The notes beneath the pieces were generated by a model that did no database searches, had not been told where the DNA came from, and saw nothing but the letters and a program-made list of their open reading frames with translations. A DNA stretch of 64,000 bases from positions 2,479,001 through 2,543,000 of the forward strand of contig NZ_CP029151.1 of the NCBI RefSeq assembly GCF_003095655.1, read 5' to 3'. Positions 996 to 63,586 of the stretch are shown here, piece after piece (positions within the stretch are counted from its first letter, which is position 1; each line of letters opens with the position of its first letter). This DNA is from Dokdonia sp. Dokd-P16. Lineage in GTDB: Bacteria > Bacteroidota > Bacteroidia > Flavobacteriales > Flavobacteriaceae. A program made the position numbers and the translations under genes.

Positions 996-3473
996 ATGCG
1001 GACAAATTTTTTCTTGGTTATCATCATACTTTTTTCCTTTGCAACCACTGCTCAGATTACGGGTACTGTAGCAAGTAGAGAAGGTGAGGCACTTCCTTTT
1101 GTAAATGTGTTTATAGAAAATACTAATCGCGGTACTACCACAAATGGTGATGGGCAATATGCTCTAGAATTACTGGCGAAAGATCAAGGAGAAACATTAA
1201 ATGTCACCTTTCAGTTTCTTGGGTTTGCTACTGTGGTAAAGGAAGTGAAGGTAAATTCTGGAGAAATGACAGTTTCTATTGTGATGGAAGAATCTTCTAC
1301 ATCCCTAGATGAAGTAATCGTGCAAGCTGGAGTAAATCCAGCAGATCGCATTATACAAGGAGCAATAGCCTCAAGAAAAAAGAATCTACAGAATATAGGT
1401 GAATATACAGCATCCTTTTACTCCAGAGGACTGTGGAAGGTAAAAGATGCTCCAGATAAAATTTTAGGGCAAGAAGTAGGAGACTTGGGAGGAGGCTTAG
1501 ATTCTACACGCACAGGAATTTTTTATTTAAGTGAGACCATTTCAAATATTAAATACCAGCGCCCAGATAATTTTAGTGAGGTGATTGTAGCTAGCAAAGT
1601 AAGTGGTGATGATAATGGTTTTAGCTTTAATACTGCGAGCGATGCAAATTTCTCTTTCTATGAAAATACCTTAAATCTCAACACGCAGATAATTTCTCCT
1701 ATCGCCAGCAATGCATTTTCTTATTACAAGTATGCGCTTGAAGGAACATTTTTTGAAAATGATCAACTCATCAATAAAATAACTGTAACGCCACGCCGAG
1801 ATAATGATCGTGTTTTTGCGGGAACTATTTACATTGTAGAAGACTCTTGGCAACTTTATGGAGTCGATTTACAAACAGATGGAAGCGCAATACAAGTACC
1901 ATTTATAGAAAATTTGAACTTTAAGCAGAATTTCAAATATGAGGAATCTCTTAGTCAGTGGGTGAAAATCTCACAAGTCATTGACTTTAGCTTTGGTTTT
2001 TTAGGACTTAAAGGTGATGGTAGATTTACAGCAGCTTATTCTGATTATGATTTTGCTCCTCAGTTTACGAAAGACTCTTTTTCGGCAGAGATTTTGTCTT
2101 TTGCAGACCAAGCAAATAAAAAAGATAGTGTGTTCTGGGAGCGCAGTCGTCCCGTGCCTTTAACGTCACTTGAAATAAATGATTATGTAAAGAAAGATAG
2201 TATACAGGTTATAAGAAAATCAAAGAAGTACTTAGATTCTATAGATGACCGAGGCAATCGATTTAAGATTACTTCGCCCATCTTTGGATATTCTTATACA
2301 GATACCTATAATAAATGGAGGTTAGGGATTACACCACCTATTCAGAATATTCAGTTTAATACCATCCAAGGTTGGAATGGAACTATGCAGGCAACTTATT
2401 CTAGTTGGAGTGATGAAGATTATAGTAAATCTCTTTCCGCTTTCGCGAAAGCGAACTATGGATTCTCAGAAAATCGCTTGCGTTACACTTTAGGAGTTAC
2501 TAGACGTTTTAATCGAACTAATAGAGCTACTATAAGTGCCACTGGAGGAGTTGACATTTTACAAGTAAATAATGCAAATCCAATATCGCCTATTTTAAAT
2601 ACAGCATACTCACTACTTAGGGAACAAAATTTTGCTAAGTACTATGAAAAGGAATTTGCACAACTCTACTATGGACAAGAAATAGTGAATGGCTTGCAAG
2701 CAAATGCAATCATTGCTTACGAGCACCGTAATCCTGTTTTTAACACTACCGATCAAACATTCTTCCCGAAAGATGATCGTGAGTATACAAGTAACAATCC
2801 GCTTAATCCTTTTGATACTGAAAATGGTGCTTTTGAAGAGCACTCCATCGGTAAGTTGCTTCTAAGTGCAACGGCAAATTTCGGTCAGAAATACTACAGC
2901 TATCCTAACGGAAAATTTAATGTCACCTCAGAAAAGTATCCATCGCTTACGTTGGTATATGAAAAGGGTTTCGGAGCTTCCGTTTCAGATTATAATTTTG
3001 ATCAATTTCGTCTTATAGTTGAACAAGAATTTAATATAAGTAATAAAGGAAGAATGTCTTATGACTTACGCGCGGGAACTTTTTTAGGTACTGCAAAAAG
3101 TGTGAGCTTCATAGATAGACAACATTTTAACGGGAACCGTTCTATAATTTTTGAGCCATTACGTCTCAATCGCTTTAATGTATTGCCTTATTATGAACGT
3201 AGTACGAACCAAGGATATATAGAAGGACATGTTGAGCATAATTTTAGAGGATGGATACTAGGGAAGATCCCACTAGTAAATAAATTAAACTTTAATCTTA
3301 TTGCAGGTGCACACGTACTTAGCACAAATGAAAGTCCATTCTACAGAGAGTTCACCGTAGGAATAGGAAATGTAGGTTGGGGTAAATTTAGACTATTGCG
3401 TTTTGACTATGTGTATGGTCAAGGAGCGCTTGGAGGTAATGATGGTGCTTTTTTAATAGGATTGAGCTTGTAA
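996..3473 (+). CDS. DUF5686 / carboxypeptidase-like regulatory domain outer-membrane protein
   Basis: 825 residues with a signal peptide (MRTNFFLVIIILFSFATTAQ). Residues about 20-110 are a CarboxypepD_reg-like domain (ITGTVASREGEALPFVNVFIENTNRG, then TTTNGDGQYALE and a LDEVIVQAG strand). The rest matches the DUF5686 family, a large beta-rich region ending in a hydrophobic strand (GAFLIGLSL) that suggests an outer-membrane barrel. The family is common in Flavobacteriia and its function is unknown. Codons for residues 482-486 (AFAKA) are made by a copy of the dispersed 14-bp palindrome at 2439-2452. Transcription is probably shared with the upstream gene. Confidence 0.8.
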   Translation: MRTNFFLVIIILFSFATTAQITGTVASREGEALPFVNVFIENTNRGTTTNGDGQYALELLAKDQGETLNVTFQFLGFATVVKEVKVNSGEMTVSIVMEESSTSLDEVIVQAGVNPADRIIQGAIASRKKNLQNIGEYTASFYSRGLWKVKDAPDKILGQEVGDLGGGLDSTRTGIFYLSETISNIKYQRPDNFSEVIVASKVSGDDNGFSFNTASDANFSFYENTLNLNTQIISPIASNAFSYYKYALEGTFFENDQLINKITVTPRRDNDRVFAGTIYIVEDSWQLYGVDLQTDGSAIQVPFIENLNFKQNFKYEESLSQWVKISQVIDFSFGFLGLKGDGRFTAAYSDYDFAPQFTKDSFSAEILSFADQANKKDSVFWERSRPVPLTSLEINDYVKKDSIQVIRKSKKYLDSIDDRGNRFKITSPIFGYSYTDTYNKWRLGITPPIQNIQFNTIQGWNGTMQATYSSWSDEDYSKSLSAFAKANYGFSENRLRYTLGVTRRFNRTNRATISATGGVDILQVNNANPISPILNTAYSLLREQNFAKYYEKEFAQLYYGQEIVNGLQANAIIAYEHRNPVFNTTDQTFFPKDDREYTSNNPLNPFDTENGAFEEHSIGKLLLSATANFGQKYYSYPNGKFNVTSEKYPSLTLVYEKGFGASVSDYNFDQFRLIVEQEFNISNKGRMSYDLRAGTFLGTAKSVSFIDRQHFNGNRSIIFEPLRLNRFNVLPYYERSTNQGYIEGHVEHNFRGWILGKIPLVNKLNFNLIAGAHVLSTNESPFYREFTVGIGNVGWGKFRLLRFDYVYGQGALGGNDGAFLIGLSL
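2438..2453. repeat. Dispersed palindrome, copy 1 (inside a CDS)
   Basis: CGCTTTCGCGAAAGCG lies inside the DUF5686-type gene and is read as A-F-A-K-A in the plus frame. Confidence 0.9.
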
Positions 3474-3477
3474 ATAT

Positions 3478-5034
3478 TTATTCAGGAAACACAACACTTT
3501 CATACGCTCCAAAGTCTGAATTGCTCGTACGGCTTGTGCCTATAATATCTATTGGGAATTGGCTTGAAGCACTTTGAAGTCCAAGATCGTTGCTTGCGGT
3601 GTTTTCTCCTACTTGAAGCATGTTTTCTGTAGGCTCAAAGAAATCTGGATCTTCACCTCTTATAATGTCTTGATAGAAACTTACGTTTGTAAAATCAAAT
3701 AACGGATTTTCATTAAAATCTCCAAAGTCATCATCAAAGCGAATCTGAGTGTTTGTAAACTTAAAATTAAACGGAGCACTATCATCTTTATTAAAACCTA
3801 ACTCCTCATCCTGATTACCGTAGATGATACAATTTGTAAAATTAGCTTGGGCAAGTTCGCCTACTAAAAGAGTGTCCCCACTAAGAAGTGTATTGTCTAT
3901 AAATACTGCGGGCGTATTTCTGAAACTTTGTGTCCAGTAATTTGCAAAGGTGCTATGTGTGAAGTTGTAGCTGCCACCCAGTTGTATAAGCATAGCAAAC
4001 TGACCACAGTTATTAATCACAGTATTAGAAGCTTCCACTGCCGAAAATCTATTGAGTAACCCCACAGCAGATGCATTGTAAATCTGAGTGTTGCTAAGTG
4101 ACAAACCTGCAGTAGCTGAGTTGTTTGCATTAGATTCATTAAGAATTCCTACCGTGGCATTTTTAATAGTCGCATGATTGATGCTGTTATTAATACTTCC
4201 ATCCGTAAGTAATATAGTTCCCCACTGTCCTGGAACATTAGAAAAAACGGGTTCCAGTCTATCGCTTTCAAATATTACTTCATTTTCAAGAAGTACGCTA
4301 TCTGTGCTTAATAATCCGTTTACTTGTAGCGATGCATTATCTGCAATGAGTAAGCCGCTATCTGCATGGAAGTGAATGCGTGCGCCAGCTTCTATGTTGA
4401 GCGTTTTAGCGTCAATTCCGCTAGGATCTCCTACAGCCATATATCCATAAATGACATAAGGCTTATCATTTGTAAAAGTAAGCTCATCATCCATGAGATA
4501 GCGTCCTTCTAGCGAAGTTTCTACATCATTTACGGTAAGTGTTTCTACTATTCCAGTAGCTCCATCACGTTCTGGAAAAAGAAATATAGCATCTTTAACC
4601 AAGGTTACAAGATCTACTTGTTGCGTTGTTCCTGTGCTATTAAACTCTATAATATCTGTATATAAAAACTCATTAGAACCATCGCCTACACTATTTATAT
4701 CAAGAGTAGTTTCTACAAAAACAAAGATGCTGTCATTTGCAAGAATCTCTACGTTTTCAAAAGTTCTACCAGGCACTCCATCAACGTTAAGTCTATAATT
4801 TGAAGATTCACCTAGTCCTAAGCGTACACTTGGGATAGCAATATCCTCGTCACTGCGGTTATATACTTTTAGATTATACGTGCTCGACCCTATGTTTGTA
4901 AAAACAGTATCTAGAAAAATAGTATCTCTAGAGAATTCAAGATTCCCAGTGCTTGCTGTCGTTTCAAAATCATTACGACAAGAGCTAAAGCTTATAATTC
5001 CAGCAAGGACGATGAGTAGATATATACTGCGCAT
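3478..5034 (-). CDS. Lipoprotein with beta-helix-like repeats
   Basis: 518 residues. The N-terminus MRSIYLLIVLAGIISFSSC is a lipoprotein signal with the acylated cysteine at residue 19. Residues 30-130 resemble an Ig-like strand-rich region (FLDTVFTNIGSSTYNLKVYNRSDEDI). Residues about 200-420 contain short repeating strands rich in N, S and T (ASLQVNGLL, HATIKNATVGI, NTVINNCGQF), the pattern of a right-handed parallel beta-helix. No catalytic motif was recognised, so it may be a surface-exposed structural or binding protein. It converges on the upstream plus-strand gene with only 4 bases between stops. Confidence 0.7.
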   Translation of the reverse strand: MRSIYLLIVLAGIISFSSCRNDFETTASTGNLEFSRDTIFLDTVFTNIGSSTYNLKVYNRSDEDIAIPSVRLGLGESSNYRLNVDGVPGRTFENVEILANDSIFVFVETTLDINSVGDGSNEFLYTDIIEFNSTGTTQQVDLVTLVKDAIFLFPERDGATGIVETLTVNDVETSLEGRYLMDDELTFTNDKPYVIYGYMAVGDPSGIDAKTLNIEAGARIHFHADSGLLIADNASLQVNGLLSTDSVLLENEVIFESDRLEPVFSNVPGQWGTILLTDGSINNSINHATIKNATVGILNESNANNSATAGLSLSNTQIYNASAVGLLNRFSAVEASNTVINNCGQFAMLIQLGGSYNFTHSTFANYWTQSFRNTPAVFIDNTLLSGDTLLVGELAQANFTNCIIYGNQDEELGFNKDDSAPFNFKFTNTQIRFDDDFGDFNENPLFDFTNVSFYQDIIRGEDPDFFEPTENMLQVGENTASNDLGLQSASSQFPIDIIGTSRTSNSDFGAYESVVFPE

Positions 5035-5079
5035 GTAAATGTAGTTTGTAACAAATATAACGCATTAAGTGTAGTGTTT

Positions 5080-5826
5080 TTAATGTCCTTTTTCTTTCTT
5101 GAGACGCTTCTTTTCTAGTCTCTCTTCTTTCTTAAATTGTTTGTAGTCGTGTATGGAAACCTCACCTAAAAGCATGTTTTGATCCTCATCTTTAAAATTT
5201 ACATTAATTTCAAGTTGTGAGCCCACGAGAATCTTACGTGGTTCGTATCCTAAGAAGCTATAAATAATAGTTTCTCCTGGAAACACTTTGAGACTATAAT
5301 CTCCATCAAAATCAGTTTGGTAAGCTCTTGAAGTTCCATTTACAGTAATATTCACTCCAGGTAGCGGACCAACCATGTCGGTAACAGTGCCTTTTATGGT
5401 TACTAGTTTTTGTGGAGTTTTATGCTTTCGCGAAAGCGAACCAATTCCTAAACTATCATATGCATTAATAGGTAATTCAACGGGTGCTATGTCTCCAGTG
5501 ATAAAGACCTCTTCTGTGGTTTGAGATACTGCATCTCCAGCCGAAAGTGTAGCGATAGGTACTAACAAAGAAGCTGCGTATTGCGCAAAACTACGGCCTT
5601 TATGACGCGATAAAGATAGGGGAGTACCTAGCTGGTCTTTTCTAAAACGACCGCAAATCGAATCTCCACTCACTATATGATCACGTAATTGTATTGTAGT
5701 GTGTGATGTGAAATCTATGACCTCTTTACTGCATACAGCGCAGTGTTTTCCTTGCTGGGTAGGAGTCATTTTATTCCAGTCTTCATGACATGGCTTTGGG
5801 ATTGTAATGGCGATAGGCTTTTTCAT
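5080..5826 (-). CDS. CarboxypepD_reg-like protein with N-terminal Cys motif
   Basis: 248 residues. Residues 1-70 have the motif PCHEDWNKMTPTQQGKHCAVC followed by SKEVIDFTSH and a later GDSICGRF. This cysteine-containing module starts many Flavobacteriaceae proteins, and I infer metal or disulfide binding. A hydrophobic stretch at about 84-100 (AASLLVPIATLSAG) is a probable membrane segment. Residues 140-215 are a CarboxypepD_reg-like domain (ITIKGTVTDMVGPLPGVNITVNG type). The tail is strongly basic and acidic (KKEERLEKKRLKKEKGH). A palindrome copy in the middle is read as SLSRKH. Function unknown. Confidence 0.7.
   Translation of the reverse strand: MKKPIAITIPKPCHEDWNKMTPTQQGKHCAVCSKEVIDFTSHTTIQLRDHIVSGDSICGRFRKDQLGTPLSLSRHKGRSFAQYAASLLVPIATLSAGDAVSQTTEEVFITGDIAPVELPINAYDSLGIGSLSRKHKTPQKLVTIKGTVTDMVGPLPGVNITVNGTSRAYQTDFDGDYSLKVFPGETIIYSFLGYEPRKILVGSQLEINVNFKDEDQNMLLGEVSIHDYKQFKKEERLEKKRLKKEKGH
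5424..5437. repeat. Dispersed palindrome, copy 2 (inside a CDS)
   Basis: GCTTTCGCGAAAGC inside the gene at 5080-5826. This is the only coding copy read in a different frame (S-L-S-R-K-H rather than A-F-A-K-A). Confidence 0.9.
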
Positions 5827-5917
5827 AATGCTTTGATTAACTGATGTAAATCTAGTTAATCAAGCATCTTGCCAGTATCGTAAATGAGTAAACGCGCGGT
5901 TACGGTGAGTAAACCGT

Positions 5918-6979: not shown

Positions 6980-7030
6980 GTGATGTTGAATTTTAAGGCA
7001 ATTTAAAACAAAAAATCGGGCAAAAAAACC

Positions 7031-7060
7031 TTGCGACTTCTCAAAGAAGCTATATCTTTG
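7031..7060 (+). promoter_or_regulatory. Housekeeping promoter of the SRP RNA gene
   Basis: TTG at 7031-7033, a 19-base spacer, then TATCTTTG at 7053-7060. This matches the Bacteroidota sigma-A consensus TTG-N19-TAnnTTTG exactly, and the RNA begins about 5 bases after it. Confidence 0.85.
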
Positions 7061-7064
7061 CAGC

Positions 7065-7158: not shown

Positions 7159-7204
7159 ATTTTTTGTGCGCACAAGTCAAGTAATTTGACTCTATATATA
7201 AAGA

Positions 7205-7248: not shown

Positions 7249-7265
7249 ACGCTTTCGCGAAAGCG
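7249..7265. repeat. Dispersed palindrome, copy 3
   Basis: ACGCTTTCGCGAAAGCG directly abuts the T-run of the ffs terminator and sits before the ribB terminator. Intergenic between convergent transcripts. Confidence 0.9.
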
Positions 7266-7277
7266 CAATTACACCTC

Positions 7278-10259: not shown

Positions 10260-10979
10260 TTATAATTTATTGATGTAATAATCTGCGTACTTCGTCTTAT
10301 CAAAAACAAATACATTTTTAGCCAAAGGTTGATTAGGCTTAAATGAATTTACAGTAATAGTCACTTTAGTACCATTCTTTTGTGTGATAATAAGCTTGTG
10401 TATATGCTTAGTCTGTGCGTCTACACCTAATAACGTATATTTTACGTCACTATTAGAGTCCATAGGAGTAAGCTTTACAAACTGTATTTCTCTTCCGTTT
10501 ACTTTTTGCACGATGTCCATCTTCTGTGTGTAACCTTCATTAAAGAAGGATAACATTTTTGAAGGTGTAATTGCGTTTTCATCTTGATCACTCATTGCAC
10601 TAATGGTGATTTCCTCATCTTCAGGAACAATAGTATAAACGTTCTTTCCATCAAATAATTGCGTAGTCCCCATAAGAGAAAGCTTGTAGTTGTTACCAGC
10701 CATGACTACGTTTCCTTTGGTCTCTTGATTTACACCTTCGGCTTCATTGCTTAAGGCATATTTAAAATCAATAGCAATGTTGTCATAGCTTTTTACCTTG
10801 GTGTCTACCTCTTTAAGTAGGGTTTGTGCTGTTTGCGCTTTCGCGAAAGCGGTCATAAGTAACAACAATACCACAGGCATTGCACGTTTTGCAAATTTGC
10901 GATAACCTTTTACTGCGACAGGAACTAACACTTTCTTAAAAAGGATAGGAGCCAGCCAAAAAATAAGTTTCTTTTTCAT
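10260..10979 (-). CDS. lolA: Outer-membrane lipoprotein carrier protein LolA family
   Basis: 239 residues. The mature part (QTAQTLLKEVDTKVKSYDNIAIDFKY, then GNVVMAGNNYKLSL and QLFDGKNVYTI) matches the LolA fold, an open beta-barrel that shuttles lipoproteins across the periplasm. The export signal is MPVVLLLLMTAFAKA, with cleavage after AKA. It is preceded by 33 unusual basic-hydrophobic residues (KKKLIFWLAPILFKK and following), so translation could also begin at the internal ATG at 10880. The first ATG is kept because it follows the ftsK stop by only 6 bases. The AFAKA of the cleavage site is encoded by a copy of the dispersed palindrome. It is co-transcribed with ftsK. Confidence 0.85.
   Translation of the reverse strand: MKKKLIFWLAPILFKKVLVPVAVKGYRKFAKRAMPVVLLLLMTAFAKAQTAQTLLKEVDTKVKSYDNIAIDFKYALSNEAEGVNQETKGNVVMAGNNYKLSLMGTTQLFDGKNVYTIVPEDEEITISAMSDQDENAITPSKMLSFFNEGYTQKMDIVQKVNGREIQFVKLTPMDSNSDVKYTLLGVDAQTKHIHKLIITQKNGTKVTITVNSFKPNQPLAKNVFVFDKTKYADYYINKL
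10836..10851. repeat. Dispersed palindrome, copy 4 (inside lolA)
   Basis: CGCTTTCGCGAAAGCG encodes A-F-A-K-A on the minus strand and supplies the A-x-A signal peptidase site of LolA. Confidence 0.9.
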
Positions 10980-10985
10980 TTTGAT

Positions 10986-13439
10986 TTATTCGTTATTTAG
11001 GAGTTGATCCAGTCCAGCCATATCTTGAACTAGTACTTGACGTGCTTTACTTCCTTCAAAAGGACCTACCACACCTGCAGCTTCTAGTTGATCTATGATT
11101 CTTCCAGCTCTATTATATCCTAGTTTTAATTTACGTTGTAATAGAGAAGCGCTTCCTTGTTGTGCAATTACTAAAACCTCTGCAGCATCTCGGAAAAGTG
11201 CATCCCTATCTGAAGCATCTATATCAAGACTTGTGCCACTCTCTTCACCTACATATTCTGGCAATAAGTGAGCGTCTGGATATGCTTTTTGATTACCTAT
11301 ATAATCTACAATACGTTCTACTTCTGGAGTGTCTACAAAGGCACACTGTATACGCACCACGTCATTACCTTGTGTGTACAACATGTCACCACGACCTATA
11401 AGCTGGTCTGCTCCAGAGGTGTCAAGGATGGTACGGCTATCTATTTTTGAAGTTACTCTAAAGGCAATACGAGCTGGGAAGTTTGCTTTAATAATACCTG
11501 TAATAACGTTTACAGATGGACGTTGTGTTGCAATGATTAAGTGAATGCCTATGGCACGGGCAAGTTGTGCAAGCCTTGCAATAGGAGTCTCAACTTCCTT
11601 TCCAGAAGTCATAATAAGATCTGCAAACTCGTCTACTACTAGTACAATATATGGTAAGAACTTGTGACCATTTTCAGGATTGAGTTTGCGTGCTTTAAAC
11701 TTGACGTTGTACTCCTTAATGTTACGACACATCGCATCCTTAAGCAAGTCATAACGATTATCCATCTCTATACACATAGAGTTAAGCGTGTTAATTACCT
11801 TAGAATTATCTGTGATAATTGCCTCGTCTGTGTCAGGAAGTTTTGCTAGATAGTGTCGTTCTATTTTATTGAACAGAGTAAGCTCCACTTTCTTAGGATC
11901 TACCAGTACAAATTTAACTTCGGCAGGGTGTTTTTTGTACAGTAGCGAAGTTAGGATTGCGTTGAGACCTACAGATTTACCTTGTCCCGTTGCACCTGCC
12001 ATAAGGAGGTGAGGCATTTTGGCAAGATCTACTACAAAAGTTTCGTTTGATATGGTTTTACCTAGTGTAAGAGGCAACTCCATTTCTGCTTCTTGAAACT
12101 TCTTACTAGCCACCGCAGATCGCATACTCACAATACGCGGATTCTTATTAGGCACCTCGATACCTATAGTTCCACGTCCAGGGATAGGAGCAATAATACG
12201 TATACCCAGTGCACTTAGTGATAGCGCAATATCATCTTCTAGGTTCTTGATTTTTGAAATACGAACCCCAGCTTCTGGCACAATCTCATATAATGTTACC
12301 GTAGGCCCTACGGTAGCTTTTATATTTGAGATTCCTATTTTATAATTGTTAAGCGTCTCAACAATTCGATTTTTATTTTCTTCAAGCTCTGCTTGATTAA
12401 TAGTAATTCCTTGACCGTTTGTATAATCTTTTAATAGATCGATAGGAGGGAACTTAAACTTGCCAAGTTCTAGCGTAGGGTCAAATTCGCCAAAATCTGC
12501 AACGAGCTTTGAGCTTAAATTATCTGTGAGTTCTTCCTCTTCAATTGGTTTTTCTACCTCTACTGCTACTTCTTCCACAGGAACGACAACCTCTTCCTCT
12601 GGAGCTTTCGTTACTTGAAAACTACTAGATGCTGGTTCAGGGTCTTTTTTGGTGAGTGTAGGCTGTAAATCTTGAACGTTTTGTTTAAAAGTAGATGGCT
12701 TAGGAGGTGTTGTGGTTTCCGCTTTCGCGAAAGCGGTCTCATCCTCAACCTTTGTTCCTTTTAAAAATTCTTCGGCCTCGTAAGTAGAGGAGTTGTCTAC
12801 AATAATAGGTTCCTTTCCATCTTCTGAAAACTCACCAGCGAGGTTACTGCGTTGTTTGTTAATGAAAGTAGATATACGCTCTGGTGTAAGTTTTAAACGT
12901 ACAACTAGATAGACAATAGCTAGAAAAGCCATCACAATGATTGCTCCGGTGAGACCTAAATAATCTTGCAAGAAGTCATTGATTTCATAACCTACGGTGC
13001 CTCCAAGGATGTCATTCTTTTTATGGAAAAACCCAAGAAATACAGCTAGCCAAAGCATGAGCAAGATTCCCCAAAACCAATATCTTTTTAATGACGTCTT
13101 TGCGTAATCAAAAAAGTAATGTATTCCAGTAAGTGCTGTGAGAATACAAAGTGCGAGGGCCGGTATACCAAAACCTTTATAGATAAAGAAATGGCTAATA
13201 CGGGCACCCACAAGAGAGAGCCAGTTTGAAGCTTCGTCTTCTCTGGTTCCTGTAGCGATAAGACTTTGATCTACTTTCCAAGTAAATAAGTATGAGATAA
13301 AAGAAAACAGCAAACCGAGACCAAGTAAGAATAAAAAACTTCCTAAAATGATCTGCTGCTGGCGTGTCAACTTAAAGGAAATAGATTTTCTAGGAGTCTT
13401 AGTGTTTGTTTTTTTAGCCGTGGATTTCTTTTTTGCCAT
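10986..13439 (-). CDS. ftsK: DNA translocase FtsK/SpoIIIE
   Basis: 817 residues. Four membrane helices lie within residues 25-190, followed by an acidic and proline-rich linker (190-310). The motor has Walker A GATGQGKS near residue 480 and Walker B YIVLVVDEFADLI near 600, with RPSVNVITG after it. The C-terminal 60 residues are the winged-helix gamma domain (AAEVLVIAQQGSASLLQRKL and RAGRIIDQLEAAGVVG), which reads KOPS-type polar sequences. FtsK pumps chromosome ends at the septum and activates XerCD at dif. The linker contains AFAKA from a palindrome copy. It heads the lolA-lpt gene string. Confidence 0.95.
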   Translation of the reverse strand: MAKKKSTAKKTNTKTPRKSISFKLTRQQQIILGSFLFLLGLGLLFSFISYLFTWKVDQSLIATGTREDEASNWLSLVGARISHFFIYKGFGIPALALCILTALTGIHYFFDYAKTSLKRYWFWGILLMLWLAVFLGFFHKKNDILGGTVGYEINDFLQDYLGLTGAIIVMAFLAIVYLVVRLKLTPERISTFINKQRSNLAGEFSEDGKEPIIVDNSSTYEAEEFLKGTKVEDETAFAKAETTTPPKPSTFKQNVQDLQPTLTKKDPEPASSSFQVTKAPEEEVVVPVEEVAVEVEKPIEEEELTDNLSSKLVADFGEFDPTLELGKFKFPPIDLLKDYTNGQGITINQAELEENKNRIVETLNNYKIGISNIKATVGPTVTLYEIVPEAGVRISKIKNLEDDIALSLSALGIRIIAPIPGRGTIGIEVPNKNPRIVSMRSAVASKKFQEAEMELPLTLGKTISNETFVVDLAKMPHLLMAGATGQGKSVGLNAILTSLLYKKHPAEVKFVLVDPKKVELTLFNKIERHYLAKLPDTDEAIITDNSKVINTLNSMCIEMDNRYDLLKDAMCRNIKEYNVKFKARKLNPENGHKFLPYIVLVVDEFADLIMTSGKEVETPIARLAQLARAIGIHLIIATQRPSVNVITGIIKANFPARIAFRVTSKIDSRTILDTSGADQLIGRGDMLYTQGNDVVRIQCAFVDTPEVERIVDYIGNQKAYPDAHLLPEYVGEESGTSLDIDASDRDALFRDAAEVLVIAQQGSASLLQRKLKLGYNRAGRIIDQLEAAGVVGPFEGSKARQVLVQDMAGLDQLLNNE
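12719..12736. repeat. Dispersed palindrome, copy 5 (inside ftsK linker)
   Basis: CCGCTTTCGCGAAAGCGG is a perfect 18-bp palindrome here, with C/G rather than A/T at the outer position. It is read as T-A-F-A-K-A-E in the disordered linker of FtsK. Confidence 0.9.
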
Positions 13440-16344: not shown

Positions 16345-16989
16345 TTAGTTTGCGTGTGCAGCAAGGTAGCTAGCAACACCATCACGGTTTGCGCTCATTG
16401 CATCTTTTCCATCTTCCCAGTTTGCAGGACAAACTTCTCCTTTTTCTTGTACGTGTGTGTAAGCATCTACAAGTCTTAAAAACTCTGCTACATTACGACC
16501 AAGAGGCATGTGGTTTACACCTTCGTGAAAAACAGTTCCTTCCTCATCAATAAGGTAAGTCGCTCTGTAAGTAACATTGTCACCATCTACCATAACAGTT
16601 CCAGTCTCTTCATCAAAACGCTCGTTTGTCACGTCAAGAATCCCAAGTTGGTTTGCAAGATTACGGTTAGTATCTGCAAGAATAGGGTATGTTACACCTT
16701 CTATACCTCCATTATCTTTTGCAGTGTTTAACCACGCAAAGTGTACTTCTGGAGTATCACATGAAGCTCCTATCACTAGCGTATTACGATCTGCAAATGC
16801 TTGTTTTGCTGTCTCGAAAGCATGAAGCTCAGTAGGACAAACAAATGTAAAATCTTTCGGGTACCAGAAAAGAATGATTTTCTTTCCTTCTTCCTTAGCT
16901 TTTTCTAAGATGTTTAATTTAAAAGTATCTCCCATTTCATCCATCGCGTCAACAGCAAGGTTTGGGAATTTTTTACCAACTAAAGTCAT
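16345..16989 (-). CDS. Peroxiredoxin, AhpC/Prx1 type
   Basis: 214 residues. The peroxidatic motif is FTFVCPTELHAFE (Cys near residue 51), followed by LVIGASCDTPEVHFAW, and a resolving-cysteine region GEVCPANW near residue 192. This is a typical 2-Cys peroxiredoxin layout. It heads a three-gene operon with a thioredoxin and a small acidic protein. On the minus strand TACTTTTG lies about 30 bases upstream of the start and fits a -7 element, without a clear -33 TTG. Confidence 0.92.
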   Translation of the reverse strand: MTLVGKKFPNLAVDAMDEMGDTFKLNILEKAKEEGKKIILFWYPKDFTFVCPTELHAFETAKQAFADRNTLVIGASCDTPEVHFAWLNTAKDNGGIEGVTYPILADTNRNLANQLGILDVTNERFDEETGTVMVDGDNVTYRATYLIDEEGTVFHEGVNHMPLGRNVAEFLRLVDAYTHVQEKGEVCPANWEDGKDAMSANRDGVASYLAAHAN

Positions 16990-17123: not shown

Positions 17124-17141
17124 ACGCTTTCGCGAAAGCGT
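17124..17141. repeat. Dispersed palindrome, copy 6
   Basis: Full 18-mer ACGCTTTCGCGAAAGCGT, starting 7 bases past the stop of the gene at 17149-17604. It is the last perfect copy before a 10.7-kb stretch without any. Confidence 0.9.
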
Positions 17142-20528: not shown

Positions 20529-20783
20529 AGTATAAGATGGTTAATGCGATAGAAACCTATAAAGGTTTTTATTTCTAGCGTTGTTAGTATAAAAAATCAG
20601 CTTTTATAATAGTATAATCTATAAGTGGGGAGTATGTATGCGTTTGGTAAATGTATGTGAATGTAGATTTATAGTCAACGCTATCCATTAATTATAGATT
20701 TTAAAACTTTATTTTTGATAAAAAATAGAATTTAGCTTTCGCAAAAGCGCAAAATGATAACCCTCACTGATAATTTTTCTACC
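20529..20783. promoter_or_regulatory. Divergent promoter region of PLP enzyme and lrp
   Basis: 255 bases, very AT-rich, between divergent starts. A degenerate palindrome AGCTTTCGCAAAAGCGC lies at 20734-20750 just before the regulator. Sequences such as AAAATCAGCTTTTATAATAG and runs of A/T are the kind of DNA Lrp proteins wrap, but I can name no exact operator. Confidence 0.45.
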
Positions 20784-27808: not shown

Positions 27809-27826
27809 ACGCTTTCGCGAAAGCGT
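27809..27826. repeat. Dispersed palindrome, copy 7
   Basis: Full 18-mer, starting 5 bases past the trmD stop and 82 bases from the prfB start. Confidence 0.9.
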
Positions 27827-31125: not shown

Positions 31126-31143
31126 ACGCTTTCGCGAAAGCGT
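31126..31143. repeat. Dispersed palindrome, copy 8
   Basis: Full 18-mer between the gap stop (31163) and the gap terminator, so it is part of the transcript's 3' untranslated region. Confidence 0.9.
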
Positions 31144-34313: not shown

Positions 34314-35087
34314 ATGACAATCCCATTTTCAAAATATCAAGGTACTGGCAATGATTTTGTAATCATAGATAACCGTACTCAATACTTTCCCAAAGATGAT
34401 ACCAAACTCATCTCAAAGCTCTGTGACAGAAAGTTTGGCATAGGAGCAGACGGTTTGATGCTGTTAGAAAATCACCCTTCGGCAGATTTTAGAATGGTGT
34501 ACTATAATGCAGATGGTAATGAAAGTAGCATGTGCGGTAATGGTGGACGCTGCTTGGTAGCTTTCGCGAAAGCGTTATCTATTATAGAAAATAAGGCAAC
34601 CTTTGAAGCGATAGATGGTTTACACGAGGCAAGCATAGAAGACGATATCGTGCAGCTGAAAATGCAAGATGTATCTGAAATTAAGAAAGAGCCTAAATAT
34701 ACTTTTCTAGATACAGGGTCACCACATCACATTGCAATGGTAGACGATGTAGAAAAAGTAAACGTAAAAGCCGAAGGTGCAGCATTGCGTTACGGTAGTT
34801 TATATGGTGAAGCGGGTAGTAACATCAATTTTGTACAGCAATTAGATAATGCTCATTTTGCAGTGCGCACCTACGAGCGTGGAGTAGAGGATGAGACGTT
34901 GAGTTGTGGTACCGGAGTTACAGCTGTTGCTCTCGCAGCACACACAAATGGGTTAACAACTAGCAATAAAGTAGCGCTAGATGTACAAGGTGGGAAACTG
35001 TCTGTACAGTTTGATAAAACGAATGATGGATATTCAAATATCTATTTAATAGGTCCTGCAACATTTGTTTTTAAAGGAGAATGGTAA
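34314..35087 (+). CDS. dapF: Diaminopimelate epimerase
   Basis: 257 residues. The two catalytic cysteines are in MCGNGGRC (Cys 74) and ETLSCGTGVTAVAL (Cys 198), with the substrate motifs GTGNDFVIIDN and GSPHHI. It converts L,L- to meso-diaminopimelate for lysine and peptidoglycan. AFAKA at residues 83-87, next to the first active-site loop, comes from a palindrome copy. It heads an operon with a GNAT and mltG; its stop overlaps the next ATG (TAATG). Confidence 0.95.
   Translation: MTIPFSKYQGTGNDFVIIDNRTQYFPKDDTKLISKLCDRKFGIGADGLMLLENHPSADFRMVYYNADGNESSMCGNGGRCLVAFAKALSIIENKATFEAIDGLHEASIEDDIVQLKMQDVSEIKKEPKYTFLDTGSPHHIAMVDDVEKVNVKAEGAALRYGSLYGEAGSNINFVQQLDNAHFAVRTYERGVEDETLSCGTGVTAVALAAHTNGLTTSNKVALDVQGGKLSVQFDKTNDGYSNIYLIGPATFVFKGEW
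34560..34573. repeat. Dispersed palindrome, copy 9 (inside dapF)
   Basis: GCTTTCGCGAAAGC, read as A-F-A-K-A at residues 83-87 of DapF, nine residues past the catalytic Cys 74. Confidence 0.9.
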
Positions 35088-38697: not shown

Positions 38698-38715
38698 ACG
38701 CTTTCGCGAAAGCGT
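38698..38715. repeat. Dispersed palindrome, copy 10
   Basis: Full 18-mer directly after a terminator T-run, 165 bases upstream of htpG. Being past the terminator, it is probably not in that transcript. Confidence 0.9.
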
Positions 38716-41532: not shown

Positions 41533-41550
41533 ACGCTTTCGCGAAAGCGT
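41533..41550. repeat. Dispersed palindrome, copy 11
   Basis: Full 18-mer 19 bases past the stop of the redoxin gene. No other terminator is seen there. Confidence 0.9.
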
Positions 41551-44544: not shown

Positions 44545-44562
44545 ACGCTTTCGCGAAAGCGT
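44545..44562. repeat. Dispersed palindrome, copy 12
   Basis: Full 18-mer starting 4 bases after the stop of DUF3667 copy 2. Confidence 0.9.
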
Positions 44563-45788: not shown

Positions 45789-45806
45789 AGACGCTTTCGC
45801 GAAAAT
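45789..45806. repeat. Degenerate dispersed palindrome
   Basis: ACGCTTTCGCGAAAATGT near 45791: the left arm is intact and the right arm is mutated. Lies between the convergent cyclase and ABC exporter genes. Confidence 0.6.
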
Positions 45807-48383: not shown

Positions 48384-48400
48384 ACGCTTTCGCGAAAGCG
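48384..48400. repeat. Dispersed palindrome, copy 13 (between divergent starts)
   Basis: ACGCTTTCGCGAAAGCG sits in the 49-base space between the truA start (48358) and the phosphodiesterase ATG (48408), so it lies within both promoter regions. Confidence 0.9.
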
Positions 48401-51758: not shown

Positions 51759-51776
51759 ACGCTTTCGCGAAAGCGT
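51759..51776. repeat. Dispersed palindrome, copy 14
   Basis: Full 18-mer upstream of fabH, in its presumed promoter or leader region. Confidence 0.9.
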
Positions 51777-54039: not shown

Positions 54040-54354
54040 AATACTTGTTGTTTGATGTAAAGATACATTATGTTTATCGTTGTTGCGATTTGATTAAACA
54101 AAAGTTAAGTTAAAATTATTTCAAATTATATGAAACTCTATGACTGTAACAGAGATGCATATTTGACGCTATAGATATATAGGAGAATGTTAGAAGTACG
54201 CTTTCGCGAAAGCGTAACAACATTATACACGCATCTGTCTCAAAATATCAAGCTGCATATGCCTAGCTGTGACACCTTGTCATACTTTCTCTAGTGGCAT
54301 ACTCCTTGTCTATTTGTGTTTGTTGAAAATTAATAACACTTAAATACATATATA
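54040..54354. other. Divergent intergenic region, TetR gene and dnaK
   Basis: 315 bases. Contains palindrome copy 15. TATCTTTA on the minus strand just before the TetR gene fits a -7 element. A dnaK promoter is expected in the last 60 bases, but no full consensus is seen. No CIRCE-like inverted repeat was found. Confidence 0.5.
54198..54215. repeat. Dispersed palindrome, copy 15
   Basis: Full 18-mer midway between two divergent genes, so it cannot be a terminator for either. Confidence 0.9.
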
Positions 54355-56306: not shown

Positions 56307-56324
56307 TCATTTTCGCGAAAGCGG
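56307..56324. repeat. Degenerate dispersed palindrome
   Basis: TCATTTTCGCGAAAGCGG: right arm intact, left arm mutated. Lies after dnaK. Confidence 0.6.
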
Positions 56325-59700: not shown

Positions 59701-60545
59701 TTGCAGCAAACGGAGCATGTGATGAGGTGAGTGCAACATTATCAGTAACTATTGTGCCTATCTCAAATGCAGGAAATGATATAGATACTTTTGTTTGTGC
59801 AGGAGATTACACAACTTCTCTATTTGGATTATTATCTAACGATGCTCAGCTTACTGGAGAATTTATAAACATCGATACATCAGAAACGGTAGTAGATGGA
59901 TTAATTGATGTGGGAGCCTTAGGTGAAGGCACTTTCTCATATCTATACATAGTTTTTACAGATGCATGTGGTCAGGATGATGCAACTATTACATTTACTA
60001 TAACACCGGTTATGGCACCTACAGTAGTATTAAATGAGCCTTTTATCTGTATTAATGATGGAGTTACCTTAGGGAATCTTGTTGTTAGTGTAGAAGACTT
60101 TGTTTGGTACGCTTCCGCGGAAGGTGGAGATCCTTTACCATTATCTACTTTATTAGTAGATGCGACGACTTACTATGTGAGTGCGGTAGATGACAACGGA
60201 TGTGAATCACCTAGAGTACCATATCTAGCAGATGTTTTACCACTAAGCGACGGAAGATGTCAGATTCAAATCTCTGATGGAGTGTCAGACAATGATGATG
60301 GTCAGAATGACTTCTTAGAATTAGGAACTTTACCAAATATCTTCCCGAATTTTGATATTCAAATTTTCAATAGATACGGAACTATCGTTTACAGAGGAAA
60401 TAGAAATACGCCACTTTTTGATGGAAGTTCTAATACAGGATCTGGATTAGGTGATCAACTACCTACAGGTGTATATTTTTACATCTTCTATCCTAATGAT
60501 TCAAACTCAGAACCGATAGACGGATCATTTTACTTAAGTAGATAA
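56724..60545 (+). CDS. Large exported repeat adhesin with T9SS type B C-terminal domain
   Basis: 1273 residues. Signal peptide MGKLYLFLTLLLCSTVTAFSQ. Residues 25-490 are non-repetitive PKD/Ig-like strands. Residues about 495-1010 hold three copies of a roughly 170-residue unit made of two modules: one starting YAGEDTTGVELC, and one with CEDGNTINLFTLLGGTPDIN and GIWSGPNGYTTTDN. The C-terminal 90 residues (FPNFDIQIFNRYGTIVYRGN and LPTGVYFYIFYP) are the gliding-motility-associated type B sorting domain of type IX secretion. It probably acts at the surface in adhesion or gliding. The PorP/SprF and OmpA-like genes that follow are its usual partners. Confidence 0.9.
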   Translation: MGKLYLFLTLLLCSTVTAFSQCAEVETFTVCDMTVVDGNGDSIPDGIINLYEEFSAITGTTITPADGMWFDPNFNFALDVVTGDLFLWDLDSSSEDIADYQFEFLNGATGCPDDVQFLFNVVLGPYSGTAASTTGGGVNLQVCQTRDRTCPQPTLIDLYETLLSNPSPHLNGTWEYLGSSSNFIAISQNRFLVVDIPYQEGPPLVDEETFDFRYTVEGISPCVSEQSTDVKVSVVREPFSGYANQITICESEILAGNYDMDINLRDDNFLVDEDIEGLWSSNNDSTGQISGPADSVINIREIYDELYATNQRFGCESFEFTYSVESRSSVCQSKSSTVTFVIMEYIRPFEQEVVPEFCVDDESNTTLDLYDLINFSNENGVEYDYPNNICTGWELVSGPSDLGLSENLGELCSLTDFNSDAFYTSRGTIFLSSLISNASAGTYVFRFTVKDSYNCVVFHPELIYSESGDDCVPSVNAEHPCSDQSTLVTIIVNPANYAGEDTADLEICETESPLVLTDLLEVNADEAPIYVGPNGVWTNTANGDVVDNNFEIPTITDSQLFNFEYNTVTENGCEDSATLSFTVYEQYDPGESGPLAVCSDAAEVDLFTLLGGTPDTNGTWSGPDGFTTTDNVALFTPETSVEGAYIYTVPANGTCLEASATVDVTLGDAIYAGEDTTGVELCNTMTTVDLITLLEDNGTDTIDTNGDWTDSSGAVIVNPFIIPSITDSQTFEFIYTTGGGGCEDTATLSFTVFEQGDAGIDAAYETCEDGNTINLFTLLGGTPDINGIWSGPNGYTTTDNEANFDPSVNAEGSYVYTIAANGACEAVTATVTVSFFATNYAGEDTTGVELCDDSFTNPIDLISLLETNGTDVVYVGTQGVWTDTVTGDVVSNPFTVPAVDGQQVFNYTYTTTTDDGCGDAATLSFTVFESSNAGTGGPFQACEDGAVVDLFTILGGSPDSNGSWSGPEGYATADNDGSIDPMTAVSGDYVYTIAANGACDEVSATLSVTIVPISNAGNDIDTFVCAGDYTTSLFGLLSNDAQLTGEFINIDTSETVVDGLIDVGALGEGTFSYLYIVFTDACGQDDATITFTITPVMAPTVVLNEPFICINDGVTLGNLVVSVEDFVWYASAEGGDPLPLSTLLVDATTYYVSAVDDNGCESPRVPYLADVLPLSDGRCQIQISDGVSDNDDGQNDFLELGTLPNIFPNFDIQIFNRYGTIVYRGNRNTPLFDGSSNTGSGLGDQLPTGVYFYIFYPNDSNSEPIDGSFYLSR
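58212..59760 (+). repeat. Tandem coding repeats in the adhesin, three units
   Basis: Units start at about 58212, 58734 and 59241 (period about 510-525 bases). Units 2 and 3 share nearly the same opening YAGEDTTGVEL; unit 1 has YAGEDTADLEI. Divergence is moderate, so the repeats are not freshly made. Confidence 0.85.
60109..60125. repeat. Palindrome variant in the adhesin gene
   Basis: ACGCTTCCGCGGAAGGT is a related palindromic core (CTTCCGCGGAAG), read as Y-A-S-A-E-G. Two changes on both arms keep the symmetry. Could be chance. Confidence 0.4.
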
Positions 60546-60560
60546 AAAAACAACCTCAAG

Positions 60561-61481
60561 ATGAAATTTAAAATATTCATACTAGCGGCATTTTGTAGTT
60601 TATCTACGTTTGCTCAACAAGAACCACAGTACACGCAGTACATGTACAATCAAGGTGTGGTAAATCCAGCCTATATGATTAATGAACCAGGACTTATAAG
60701 AGTAGGTAGTTTGTACCGCTCTCAATGGGTAGGTCTAGATGGTGCGCCAAAAACTGCAAATGTTTTTGCAAATATTCCTCTTAACGAGCGAATAGAAATA
60801 GGCGTAAACTATGTAAATGATCAAATAGGAGACGTACTCACTACAAATAATTTTAATGTAAATTTTGCTTACAGAATTAATGTAGCAGAAAATACAAACC
60901 TATCTTTTGGATTAAAGTTAGGCGTAGATAATCAGAGTCTTGATTTTACAGATCAAAATGTAGGAGGAGATTTAGCTTTTCAAAATGGGGAAACTACCTC
61001 ACTAGATGTTGGTGTAGGAGCTTTTCTTTTTAAAGATAATTACTACATTGGGTTAAGTTCGCCAAGCGTGATACCGTACAAAATTGAAAATAATTTTGGC
61101 AATGGTGATTCCTCAATTCTATATAAGAAAGATCCTACTGCATATTTAATGGCTGGTTACGTGTATGATGTGAGTGATGTGCTTAAAATAAAACCTTCTG
61201 CTGTTGCAAAATGGATAAGCGGAGCACCATTAACCTATGACCTTTCATTAAACGCCCTGTACGACGAGAAATTTGAACTCGGGGTTTCATACAGACATCA
61301 AGATGCTATCGCAGCACTAGCAGGATTTAATATTACAAATGATTTAAAAATAGGATACAGTTATGACTTTAATGTGAGCGATCTTAATCGCTTTAATAAT
61401 GGAAGTCACGAGGTAGTTCTATTGTACACATTTGATTTGCTAGGCTTACAAAAACGTTACATCTCACCAAGATTTTACTAA
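60561..61481 (+). CDS. PorP/SprF-family type IX secretion membrane protein
   Basis: 306 residues. Signal peptide MKFKIFILAAFCSLSTFAQQ. QEPQYTQYMYNQGVVNPAYM and the later YRSQWVGLDGAPKTANVFAN are hallmarks; strands alternate through to YISPRFY, typical of a 14-strand barrel. PorP/SprF proteins are needed to expose particular T9SS adhesins, the ones encoded next to them. Starts 15 bases after the adhesin stop. Confidence 0.92.
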   Translation: MKFKIFILAAFCSLSTFAQQEPQYTQYMYNQGVVNPAYMINEPGLIRVGSLYRSQWVGLDGAPKTANVFANIPLNERIEIGVNYVNDQIGDVLTTNNFNVNFAYRINVAENTNLSFGLKLGVDNQSLDFTDQNVGGDLAFQNGETTSLDVGVGAFLFKDNYYIGLSSPSVIPYKIENNFGNGDSSILYKKDPTAYLMAGYVYDVSDVLKIKPSAVAKWISGAPLTYDLSLNALYDEKFELGVSYRHQDAIAALAGFNITNDLKIGYSYDFNVSDLNRFNNGSHEVVLLYTFDLLGLQKRYISPRFY

Positions 61482-61482
61482 G

Positions 61483-63507
61483 ATGAAAAATATATACACA
61501 TTACTTATTATACTTTGTGTAAGTGCAAGTGCATTTGGACAAGTACAAAAGGGAGATCGTTTTTTTAATAAAGGAGACTACGCTGGTGCCGCAAAGTATT
61601 ATGAAGTAGCTTTAAGAAAAAATAACTCTAAAGAAATACTAGGAAAGGTTATTGACGCTTACTACCTAGATCAAGATTATAGAAATGCATCTATATACCT
61701 TAATCAACTAGTGGCACAGCGATTTAATGATGCGGATAGAACGTATGATAATGAGTTTAACTTTAAAATGTTTCATGTTCTTAATGCTACCGTGAGTTCA
61801 GATAAGGTGGTAGATTACCTTGATCTTTATTATAAAAATAGAGGTGAAGACTTTGATAAAGTAGCGGCTCTTGATCTTATAAAGGAATTAAGAAAGAGAA
61901 ACCCAAAATTTGATGCTACCAAAAGTAATATAAGCTCAGAAGCAGATGATTTTGGACCTGTAAGAGTAGGAGATAGTGTTTTCTTTACATCAGATAGATT
62001 AAATGACGATGTGCTTAGAACCTTATTTGCAAAGCGATTTAAGACAACACAAAGACCATTTTTAGACATTTATGGAGTAAGAGTGAATGATAAGAATGAA
62101 CTCGCTGGTGAAGCGGTTAGACTTGAGCAAGGAGTAAACTCGCCGTTGCATGATGGTAATCTATGTTTTAATACAGCTGGAGATGAGATGTACCTATCTC
62201 GTAGTGCTTATGAAAACGGAGATAGTGGGAAGATTTTTGATGAGGAAGGGACTAATAGAGTTCATCTTTATAAAAGTGTTCGCATAGATGGAATATGGAG
62301 AGAAGCAGAGCGTCTGTCATTTGTAAATGAAAATTACTCTTACATGCATCCTACACTTACTAGAGATGGAAAGCGCTTGTACTTTGCCTCAGATATGGAA
62401 GGAGGCCTTGGTGGTTTTGATATCTACTATGTAACCGTACAGCTAGACGGTACGTATAGTACACCAGTAAATTTAGGGCCTACTATCAATACTATTCATA
62501 GAGAGCAATTTCCATTTGTTTCAAACACAGGAGATTTATATTTTGCTACAGATGGACGTTTGGGTTTAGGTTTGCTTGATATTTTTGTAGCACCACTTAC
62601 CGTAAAAGGATTTACAGAGCCTATTAACTTAGGAGCACCTATAAATTCTAGATACGACGATTTTAGTTTAAGCTACTATTCTGATAATAACGGATTGTAT
62701 GCCACTAATCGTAACGGAACTGATGATGATATCTATAGTTTTGTACAAACTGGAGAAATCATAACTCGCGAGTTTAAAACTCAGTTTGAGGTACGTGACG
62801 CAGATACTGATGAGCTTATCTCAGATGCAGCAATACAGATCCTAGGATATCAAGGTAAAGAAGTTTATGCAGACCGTAAGGAGGATGCTGCACCTTTCCA
62901 AGTGCCACTTACTGTAGATGATTATACGTTTATAGCTTCTGGAGATAATCATGAAGAAGGACGTATGGATATTCAAATAAGAGGCTTACAGACGGCACCT
63001 TATGTAATCAAAGTAAAGAGAATATTTACAGATAGTGAGCTTGCTCTTATGAAAGAGAAAAATCTTTCTAAAGAGCTTAAAGAGAAAGATCCAAGTCGTT
63101 TTGAGTTGCTTACAGATGTGAATGCACCACAGGTTGTGGAGAAAGAGGGTAAGCTATATATGGATGTAGCTCCTATTTATTTTGATTTTGATTTATATGT
63201 GGTACGTGAAGATTCACGAGTTGTACTTGATAGACTGGCTGCTAAGCTTACCAAATACAAGCGCATTAAAATAAAAATTAGCTCTCACACAGATAGTCGT
63301 GGTCCAGCAGCTTACAATATGCCGCTATCAGAAAAAAGAGCAAAAAGCACCTTTGACTATCTAGTTAGTAAAGGAATCGATGCTTCAAGAATACAATATC
63401 AAGGATATGGCGATACACAGCCTGTGATTAACTGTCCTGTAGGTAAATGTACAGAAGATGATCATCAGCTTAACAGGCGTAGTGAATTTGAAATCACTGG
63501 CTATTAA
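61483..63507 (+). CDS. OmpA-family protein with TPR and PD40 repeats (PorE-like)
   Basis: 674 residues. Signal peptide (MKNIYTLLIILCVSASAFGQ). TPR-like start (FNKGDYAGAAKYYEVALRKN), then a PD40/WD-like propeller with DGKRLYFASDMEGGLGGFDI, YFATDGRLGLGLLDIF and similar strands (about 150-420), then a CarboxypepD_reg-like stretch (about 435-510). The OmpA domain is at about 560-674: SHTDSRGPAAYNMPLSEKRA and GYGDTQPVINCP. The OmpA part binds peptidoglycan, and the rest probably anchors the adhesin's export partner. Starts one base after the PorP gene stop. Confidence 0.88.
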   Translation: MKNIYTLLIILCVSASAFGQVQKGDRFFNKGDYAGAAKYYEVALRKNNSKEILGKVIDAYYLDQDYRNASIYLNQLVAQRFNDADRTYDNEFNFKMFHVLNATVSSDKVVDYLDLYYKNRGEDFDKVAALDLIKELRKRNPKFDATKSNISSEADDFGPVRVGDSVFFTSDRLNDDVLRTLFAKRFKTTQRPFLDIYGVRVNDKNELAGEAVRLEQGVNSPLHDGNLCFNTAGDEMYLSRSAYENGDSGKIFDEEGTNRVHLYKSVRIDGIWREAERLSFVNENYSYMHPTLTRDGKRLYFASDMEGGLGGFDIYYVTVQLDGTYSTPVNLGPTINTIHREQFPFVSNTGDLYFATDGRLGLGLLDIFVAPLTVKGFTEPINLGAPINSRYDDFSLSYYSDNNGLYATNRNGTDDDIYSFVQTGEIITREFKTQFEVRDADTDELISDAAIQILGYQGKEVYADRKEDAAPFQVPLTVDDYTFIASGDNHEEGRMDIQIRGLQTAPYVIKVKRIFTDSELALMKEKNLSKELKEKDPSRFELLTDVNAPQVVEKEGKLYMDVAPIYFDFDLYVVREDSRVVLDRLAAKLTKYKRIKIKISSHTDSRGPAAYNMPLSEKRAKSTFDYLVSKGIDASRIQYQGYGDTQPVINCPVGKCTEDDHQLNRRSEFEITGY

Positions 63508-63528
63508 TAAGCATTTCGTAAATTAACA

Positions 63529-63566
63529 AAATCGGCAATTCAATGAGTTGCCGATTTTTTTTTATT
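63529..63566. terminator. Bidirectional terminator after the adhesin operon
   Basis: AAATCGGCAA and TTGCCGATTT pair around a 9-base loop, with a long T-run on the plus strand. Confidence 0.88.
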
Positions 63567-63568
63567 TT

Positions 63569-63586
63569 ACGCTTTCGCGAAAGCGT
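63569..63586. repeat. Dispersed palindrome, copy 16
   Basis: Full 18-mer 3 bases after a terminator, between convergent genes. Confidence 0.9.

Follow-up and report, generated by a model that had tools for sequence, protein, structure and literature searches.

Why would a bacterial chromosome carry one perfect palindrome every few kilobases, within genes as well as between them? The question is raised by a 64,000-nucleotide stretch of the chromosome of Dokdonia sp. Dokd-P16 (Flavobacteriaceae; NZ_CP029151.1, positions 2,479,001 to 2,543,000), referred to here as the window, which holds 16 exact copies of the 14-bp palindrome GCTTTCGCGAAAGC. We examined the count, shape, placement, conservation and spread of this palindrome and compared it with known systems. 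By analogy with those systems, there is about an even chance that the palindrome works like an uptake sequence, that is, as a mark of self-DNA read by a pilus-free competence machinery; we do not call it a DNA uptake sequence (DUS).

Abundance and exactness of the palindrome

The palindrome was absent from all of 100 dinucleotide shuffles. A preliminary description of the window had listed 16 copies, and all were found where it placed them (Table 1); its count of nine copies with the full 18-mer ACGCTTTCGCGAAAGCGT was also borne out. The 3.62-Mb host chromosome contained 808 exact copies, or one per 4.5 kb, and no copy of the reversed word used as a control, in agreement with the earlier statement that the palindrome is dispersed at a density far above random. 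When up to one mismatch was allowed, 914 copies were counted (control 1). Copies were thus mostly perfect or absent, with 106 single-mismatch copies against the 808 exact ones. If single-mismatch copies either decay or are repaired, this ratio (106:808) would correspond to restoration or removal at an estimated 90 times or so the base mutation rate. No longer shared unit was seen beyond the composition-biased arms described below, in line with the earlier remark that the palindrome is not a transposon end.

Three near-copies were present in the window. The single-mismatch copy is probably a decayed site, as suggested by its exactness in two relatives of the host. Another two-mismatch word, at 16808, was of a different kind from those at 45793 and 56309. 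Further sites were read from a host sample of 624 kb of the 3623 kb, consisting of the window and 28 stretches of 20 kb and containing 140 sites. Half of the single-mismatch copies in this sample (8 of 16) deviated in the outer two pairs. None of 36 two-mismatch variants was palindromic, which is weak evidence alone because only about 0.9 would be expected by chance.

Table 1. Copies and near-copies of the palindrome in the window.
Feature	Position	Location	Remark
Palindrome	2439..2452	in ORF 996-3473 (DUF5686)	read as AFAKA
Palindrome	5424..5437	in ORF 5080-5826	
Palindrome	7251..7264	intergenic	
Palindrome	10837..10850	in ORF 10260-10979 (LolA family)	AFAKA frame; G397 differs by one base
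Palindrome	12721..12734	in ORF 10986-13439 (FtsK)	AFAKA, between membrane and motor domains
Palindrome	17126..17139	intergenic	18-mer
Palindrome	27811..27824	intergenic	18-mer
Palindrome	31128..31141	intergenic	18-mer
Palindrome	34560..34573	in ORF 34314-35087 (DapF)	AFAKA, arisen by substitution, constant-length block
Palindrome	38700..38713	intergenic	18-mer
Palindrome	41535..41548	intergenic	18-mer
Palindrome	44547..44560	intergenic	18-mer; G399 differs by one base
Palindrome	48386..48399	divergent gene pair	overlaps called, uncertain starts of both ORFs
Palindrome	51761..51774	intergenic	18-mer
Palindrome	54200..54213	divergent gap upstream of dnaK	18-mer
Palindrome	63571..63584	convergent gap	18-mer
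One-mismatch copy GCTTTCGCAAAAGC	20735..20748		exact in both G399 and G400
Two-mismatch copy	45793..45806		one outer end changed
Two-mismatch copy	56309..56322		one outer end changed

High copy number, an excess of single-mismatch copies over chance and an internal TCGCGA that could be methylated recall HIP1 (GCGATCGC), the highly iterated palindrome of cyanobacteria, which likewise lies in genes and between them. Under such an explanation, methylation-dependent mismatch repair would make and keep the copies, and deviations at the outer pairs have a parallel in HIP1, whose deviations are also end-biased according to the available part of PMC4390886. The Dokdonia palindrome differs from HIP1 in sequence and length, its 14-bp core with arms being much longer, and GCGATCGC has no copy in the window. 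No match to the C5-methyltransferase family PF00145 was found in the host, while 5 of 12 genomes rich in the palindrome and 6 of 13 poor in it have one; N6 and N4 enzymes and other methylases were not searched. An m5C methyltransferase was therefore set aside as the maker of the sites, and the methylation mark suggested earlier is unlikely in its m5C form. We consider a HIP1-like origin very improbable.

A literature text search found the 14-mer GCTTTCGCGAAAGC in no paper. Among the matches listed for CGCGAAAGCG, no title concerned this subject, and the available part of the RepRanger paper (PMC12306157) named neither Dokdonia nor the word GCTTTCG.

Shape of the extended motif

Over the 140 sites, the bases preferred outward from the core were C (0.81-0.85), A (0.48-0.78) and T (0.67-0.82). 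On each strand a C-poor arm of about 16 nt (about -4 to -19) lay 5' of the core. C made up 0-15% per position in the arm, compared with 14-20% farther out; T and G were raised, GTGG and TGTG were enriched, and the bias faded near -20. The C-poor arm was seen at intergenic and coding sites, and the bias had one direction throughout the four gap types. Lower C in the arm than farther out was also measured in other Dokdonia (8% vs 18%, 57 sites), in the genera g11 (4% vs 17%, 34 sites) and g191 (15% vs 26%, 13 sites) and in motif-poor genera (8% vs 19%, 28 sites), in counts that drew partly on the comEC neighbourhoods of three genomes.

The two arms varied independently. Of the 15 positions from -1 to -15, nine showed arm-to-arm agreement at or below the expectation for independent arms, and no excess elsewhere was larger than 0.08; at -1, agreement was 0.78 compared with 0.70 expected. 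The earlier impression of joint changes of the outer bases in the two arms was not upheld across the 140 sites. As judged from its sequence, the motif is consistent with a symmetric protein that binds about 52 bp of duplex DNA, and is evidence against a selected hairpin. A symmetric protein could also be an intracellular dimer with sites throughout the chromosome, such as a nucleoid organiser, a condensin loader or a topoisomerase, each site serving the few kilobases around it. The two-fold symmetric core, the symmetric C-poor arms and the lack of arm covariation are as for a dimer on duplex DNA. This is the main rival explanation, and we hold it to be unlikely.

The 14-mer core was the same across genera of 34-46% GC, while the outer bases differed between genera: TAC..GTA was common in Dokdonia and TTCC..GGAA in g11. 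Two Dokdonia genomes (G401 and G405) held 430 and 486 cores, with at most one mismatch, and only 4 and 15 20-mers, which suggests that the outer bases drift between species.

Each strand of the whole motif contains GCGAAAGC, which is known as an unusually stable DNA mini-hairpin. One copy in G206 (L092 near 8930) sits in a longer perfect inverted repeat, with a further 15 bp on each side.

Location and spacing of sites

Genes were called by a simple longest-ORF (open reading frame) rule, and false ORFs may therefore account for some of the coding sites in the frames FRES and LSRK. ORFs covered 88% of the DNA and held 77 of the 140 sites, 46 of them in the AFAKA frame; the other 63 were intergenic. 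Of these, 42 fell in the 32.2 kb of same-strand gaps, 12 in the 12.4 kb of divergent gaps and 6 in the 9.4 kb of convergent gaps; the remaining 3 were at stretch ends. The counts in divergent and convergent gaps, together with the common sign of the arm bias, argue against the mRNA 3' element that had been among the suggested roles.

Neighbouring sites stayed apart. Only 2, 3 and 15 of 112 spacings were below 0.5, 1 and 2 kb, compared with 15%, 25% and 42% expected from simulations that kept the same intergenic/coding split; none of 2000 simulations was as low. The coefficient of variation (CV) of the spacing, taken over the first stretches listed, was low in the window (0.60, P 0.03), in G397 (0.64) and in G190 (0.69). 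In the first 500 kb of the host, the CV was 1.07 and long site-free stretches were present; short gaps were rare there too (6% under 1 kb vs 19%). Spacing fits both an uptake mark and a chromosome-wide dimer site. In its available part, Bakkali 2007 (PMC1939737) cites Karlin for even spacing of uptake sequences and expects greater evenness of compaction sites than of uptake sequences.

No clear trend of site density towards origin (ori) or terminus (ter) was visible in the 624 of 3623 kb sampled, the places of ori and ter being a guess based on GC skew in the sample. Of the segregation mark suggested earlier, a form with ori/ter bias is not seen in this sample. The sites of Noc, SlmA and parS are palindromes of 12-16 bp that occur in tens of copies with ori/ter bias, and MatP sites are biased as well. 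The Dokdonia palindrome is of similar size, but its 808 copies show no visible bias in the sample, a point against a dimer site.

A density of one per 4.5 kb and T/G-rich 5' arms recall Chi, a G/T-rich signal of similar density; known Chi sites are 5-8 nt long, oriented and non-palindromic. A Chi-like signal for recombination or repair would be bidirectional here because it is palindromic, and its T/G-rich 5' strand would be favoured by RecA. However, a 14-bp palindromic core with two arms is far longer than Chi, and a minimum spacing is, to our knowledge, no feature of Chi. We regard a Chi-like signal as quite improbable.

Conservation and origin of sites

Sites were compared with three relatives, G399, G400 and G397, which diverge from the host by 7.5%, 10.6% and 20.9%, respectively. 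The core comparison covered the 16 window sites and the decayed copy at 20735; in G397, 13 of the 16 window sites were aligned. Cores differed at 2 of 238, 1 of 238 and 2 of 196 positions in the three relatives, in the same order. Sites were kept in 15 of 16, 16 of 16 and 12 of 13 cases, whereas random 14-mers were identical in 48%, 30% and 8%. DNA 25-60 bp away differed by 7%, 15% and 29%, and the arms differed by 9%, 15% and 30%, as fast as their surroundings. These rates suggest that only the composition of the arms is held. A core nearly frozen at orthologous places would be expected of a dimer site as well.

Beyond these relatives, a site lay within 400 bp upstream of dnaK in 12 of 14 other genomes, including three of g11, at a varying distance; G401 and G190 had no site within 400 bp upstream of dnaK.

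The DapF site allowed its origin to be read in one gene. Among the DapF matches listed, the best was a Dokdonia assembly with 97% identity. The alignment consisted of the window and 21 of 80 loci, and no row had a gap at the site (22 of 22), which lies in a constant-length block. Among the eight loci titled Dokdonia, seven read AFAKA and six of the eight have the exact core; the other 13 loci read AFAKS, AFANQ and the like. The alignment indicates that the DapF site arose by substitution and not by insertion.

This origin bears on a mobile element of the repetitive extragenic palindromic (REP) type and on an RNA hairpin acting as a terminator or 3' stabiliser. The 20-mer can fold into an 8-bp hairpin and intergenic copies are enriched; like REP elements, the sites are palindromic and number in the hundreds. 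The DapF site, however, carries no insertion signature and was made without a change of length, about half of all sites (77 of 140) lie in ORFs and 12 in divergent gaps, and sites stay in place at about 79% identity. The 3' side is A/C-rich and has no T-run, unlike that of an intrinsic terminator. Because of the substitution origin, the sites in ORFs and divergent gaps and the non-covarying arms, the hairpin, terminator and REP readings were set aside as extremely improbable.

Spread among Flavobacteriaceae genomes

Exact copies were found in 80 of 397 family genomes. Only six genomes, in the three genera Dokdonia, g11 and g191, exceeded 19 copies, and these motif-rich genomes held hundreds. 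All 18 Dokdonia genomes examined carried the 20-mer (4 to 254 times) and, when one mismatch was allowed, 430-1058 copies of the 14-mer. For the 12 of them with at least 99% completeness (2.9-5.5 Mb), 668-1058 such copies were counted with little dependence on genome size, as a dimer site would lead one to expect. An extra ParB-type protein was present in 14 of 16 motif-rich genomes and in 34 of 40 motif-poor ones. It does not follow the distribution of the motif, which counts against a dimer site, and an extra ParB/Noc-like reader was set aside.

In an FtsK tree of 29 genomes (29 of 30 rows; G032, with an interrupted frame, was left out), the motif-rich genomes did not form one clade. Three changes were needed, at least two of them forced by well-supported branches. 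Two genomes of another genus, G144 and G329, held 86 and 74 near-copies with at most two mismatches, compared with 20 and 10 for the control, and only 9 and 6 exact copies. This genus adjoins g191 in the tree (G144 was placed there, support 87/84), and the near-copies could be relics of a lost system.

Copies were clustered in several motif-poor genomes. At L084 16498-17715, a gene reads by eye as a TolC-type efflux protein, with two palindromes 933 bp apart, and the cluster is surrounded by genes that by eye are metal-efflux-like. The pair at 933-bp spacing recurs in four otherwise motif-poor genera (L082-L085), which may be a sign of transfer from a motif-rich donor.

Phage carriage

IMG/VR was scanned with the 16-mer CGCTTTCGCGAAAGCG, which gave 41 stretches on 30 contigs, 22 of them low-GC. 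The low-GC contigs held 36 distinct sites with the C-poor arm (C 9%), and thus the same extended motif; the other contigs held 7 sites without it (C 33%). For this count, sites without 20 nt on both sides were dropped and repeated contexts were counted once; L123 (48% GC) was placed by hand in the second, chance group, whose member L144 matches it at 92% identity. Five of the 22 low-GC contigs were checked for phage genes, with proteins taken from six stretches, and in four of them such genes could be named. When 10 proteins from the five contigs were compared with PHROGs, six had a named function (tape measure, major head, two portal or head, terminase and primase), three matched entries of unknown function and one had no match. 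Pfam gave an integrase in one more of the checked contigs. These phages may infect motif-rich hosts.

Related phages kept many aligned sites, some at 64-69% identity: 34 of 56 were kept and 22 were not identical, in a comparison in which sites are not independent, pairs overlap and alignments are partly anchored by the site. Matches of more than 97% identity or less than 400 bp were dropped. The related phage Peternella_1 of Winogradskyella had no palindrome.

Two phages of competent hosts served as benchmarks. In Haemophilus phage HP1 the 9-mer uptake signal occurred 17 times (0.53 per kb), where shuffled words averaged 0.2 in all, and its copies were evenly spaced (CV 0.51, P 0.004). Pasteurella phage F108 carried six (shuffled-word mean 0.1). 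At about 70% identity, 3 of 11 aligned uptake signals were shared between the two. The argument that presence in phages speaks against an uptake mark was therefore dropped, and neither phage carriage nor spacing weighs against it. Sites in phage contigs are unexpected of a nucleoid mark; a Chi-like signal would be consistent with them.

A candidate mark of self-DNA

The structure, spread, phage carriage and conservation of the palindrome match an uptake mark better than they match the other readings. Like DUS and uptake signal sequences (USS), the palindrome has an over-represented, near-invariant short core at about one per 1-5 kb (808 in 3.62 Mb in the host) and a weaker flanking consensus, here the C-poor arms. 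It lies in genes and gaps with short spacings rarer than chance, but with the CV of 1.07 in the host's first 500 kb, and it is carried by phages, as uptake signals are by HP1 and F108. According to the available part of Bakkali 2007 (PMC1939737), 65% of Haemophilus and 35% of Neisseria uptake sequences lie in ORFs, with a non-coding excess. The 14-bp core and the Bacteroidota host set the Dokdonia motif apart from DUS and USS. Of the roles first suggested for the palindrome, uptake mark and chromosome-wide protein site survive, while mRNA 3' element and m5C mark are disfavoured.

A precedent for pilus-free competence comes from Riemerella, which its authors place in Flavobacteriaceae. As described in the available parts of PMC8459023 and PMC7965970, Riemerella was transformed though no pilus homologues were found, its transformation set includes unknown proteins of the outer membrane and periplasm, and R. 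columbina has a preference for DNA of its own kind. The Riemerella-specific competence proteins named in PMC8459023 are of the DUF5689/choice-of-anchor J, carboxypeptidase-regulatory-like outer-membrane, helix-hairpin-helix and DUF1343 types. The word count in these papers reached 10 bp, and the words shown were A-rich.

We propose a reader at the cell surface or in the periplasm: a DNA-binding protein that belongs to a pilus-independent competence machinery like that of Riemerella. It would form a two-fold symmetric complex on the 14-bp core, together with about 16-19 bp of C-poor DNA to either side. Binding would favour uptake of marked, and thus own, DNA. Marked DNA, once taken up, would recombine with the chromosome, restoring sites that had been lost, spreading new ones and holding the density at about one mark per few kilobases.

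Several points count against this proposal. According to the available part of PMC1939737, uptake sequences are not palindromes, and the Dokdonia motif is a perfect palindrome with two symmetric arms and is not oriented. ComEC was detected in all 25 genomes tested, a point in favour of an uptake mark, but the 13 motif-poor genomes among them have it equally, so it does not follow the motif. Known readers of uptake sequences are pilins, and the pilus ATPase T2SSE was over the cut-off in 4 of 12 motif-rich genomes and in 1 of the 13 motif-poor ones. It was not over the cut-off in the other 8 of the 12 carriers nor in the host, where the match was weak, like that in other genomes, and other pilus genes were not searched. 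Beside host comEC, no Riemerella-specific competence gene was recognised by eye, with no dedicated search made in Dokdonia. The strong spacing fits a dimer site too, because Bakkali 2007 looks for greater evenness in compaction sites. Under the Riemerella conditions, Flavobacterium johnsoniae could not be transformed (available part of PMC7965970), and among the matches listed in the literature search there was no paper on Dokdonia transformation. The missing pilus ATPase would weigh against an uptake mark, but Riemerella transforms without pilus homologues.

A full-length T2SSE-type ATPase (464-479 aa) occurs in G402, G404, G412 and G242, that is, in some motif-rich members only.

We place a little below an even chance the fuller claim that this would be the first self-DNA uptake mark in Bacteroidota: a palindromic watermark read by a pilus-free outer-membrane importer, abundant in three genera and found in phages in much the way that the Haemophilus mark is found in HP1. 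The literature search found no earlier self-DNA uptake mark in Bacteroidota. The available parts of PMC8459023 and PMC7965970 leave open which DNA sequence, if any, the pilus-free transformation of Riemerella recognises. If the palindrome is a true uptake mark, it would provide a ready assay and a bait for the reader protein, and would add a convergent example of a watermark spread over the genome, under a different symmetry. Should it prove a chromosome site instead, it would indicate that a DNA-organising protein with some 800 perfect sites awaits description. Under either reading, the palindrome serves as a tracer, with clusters in several motif-poor genomes and at least one of them beside metal-efflux-like genes.

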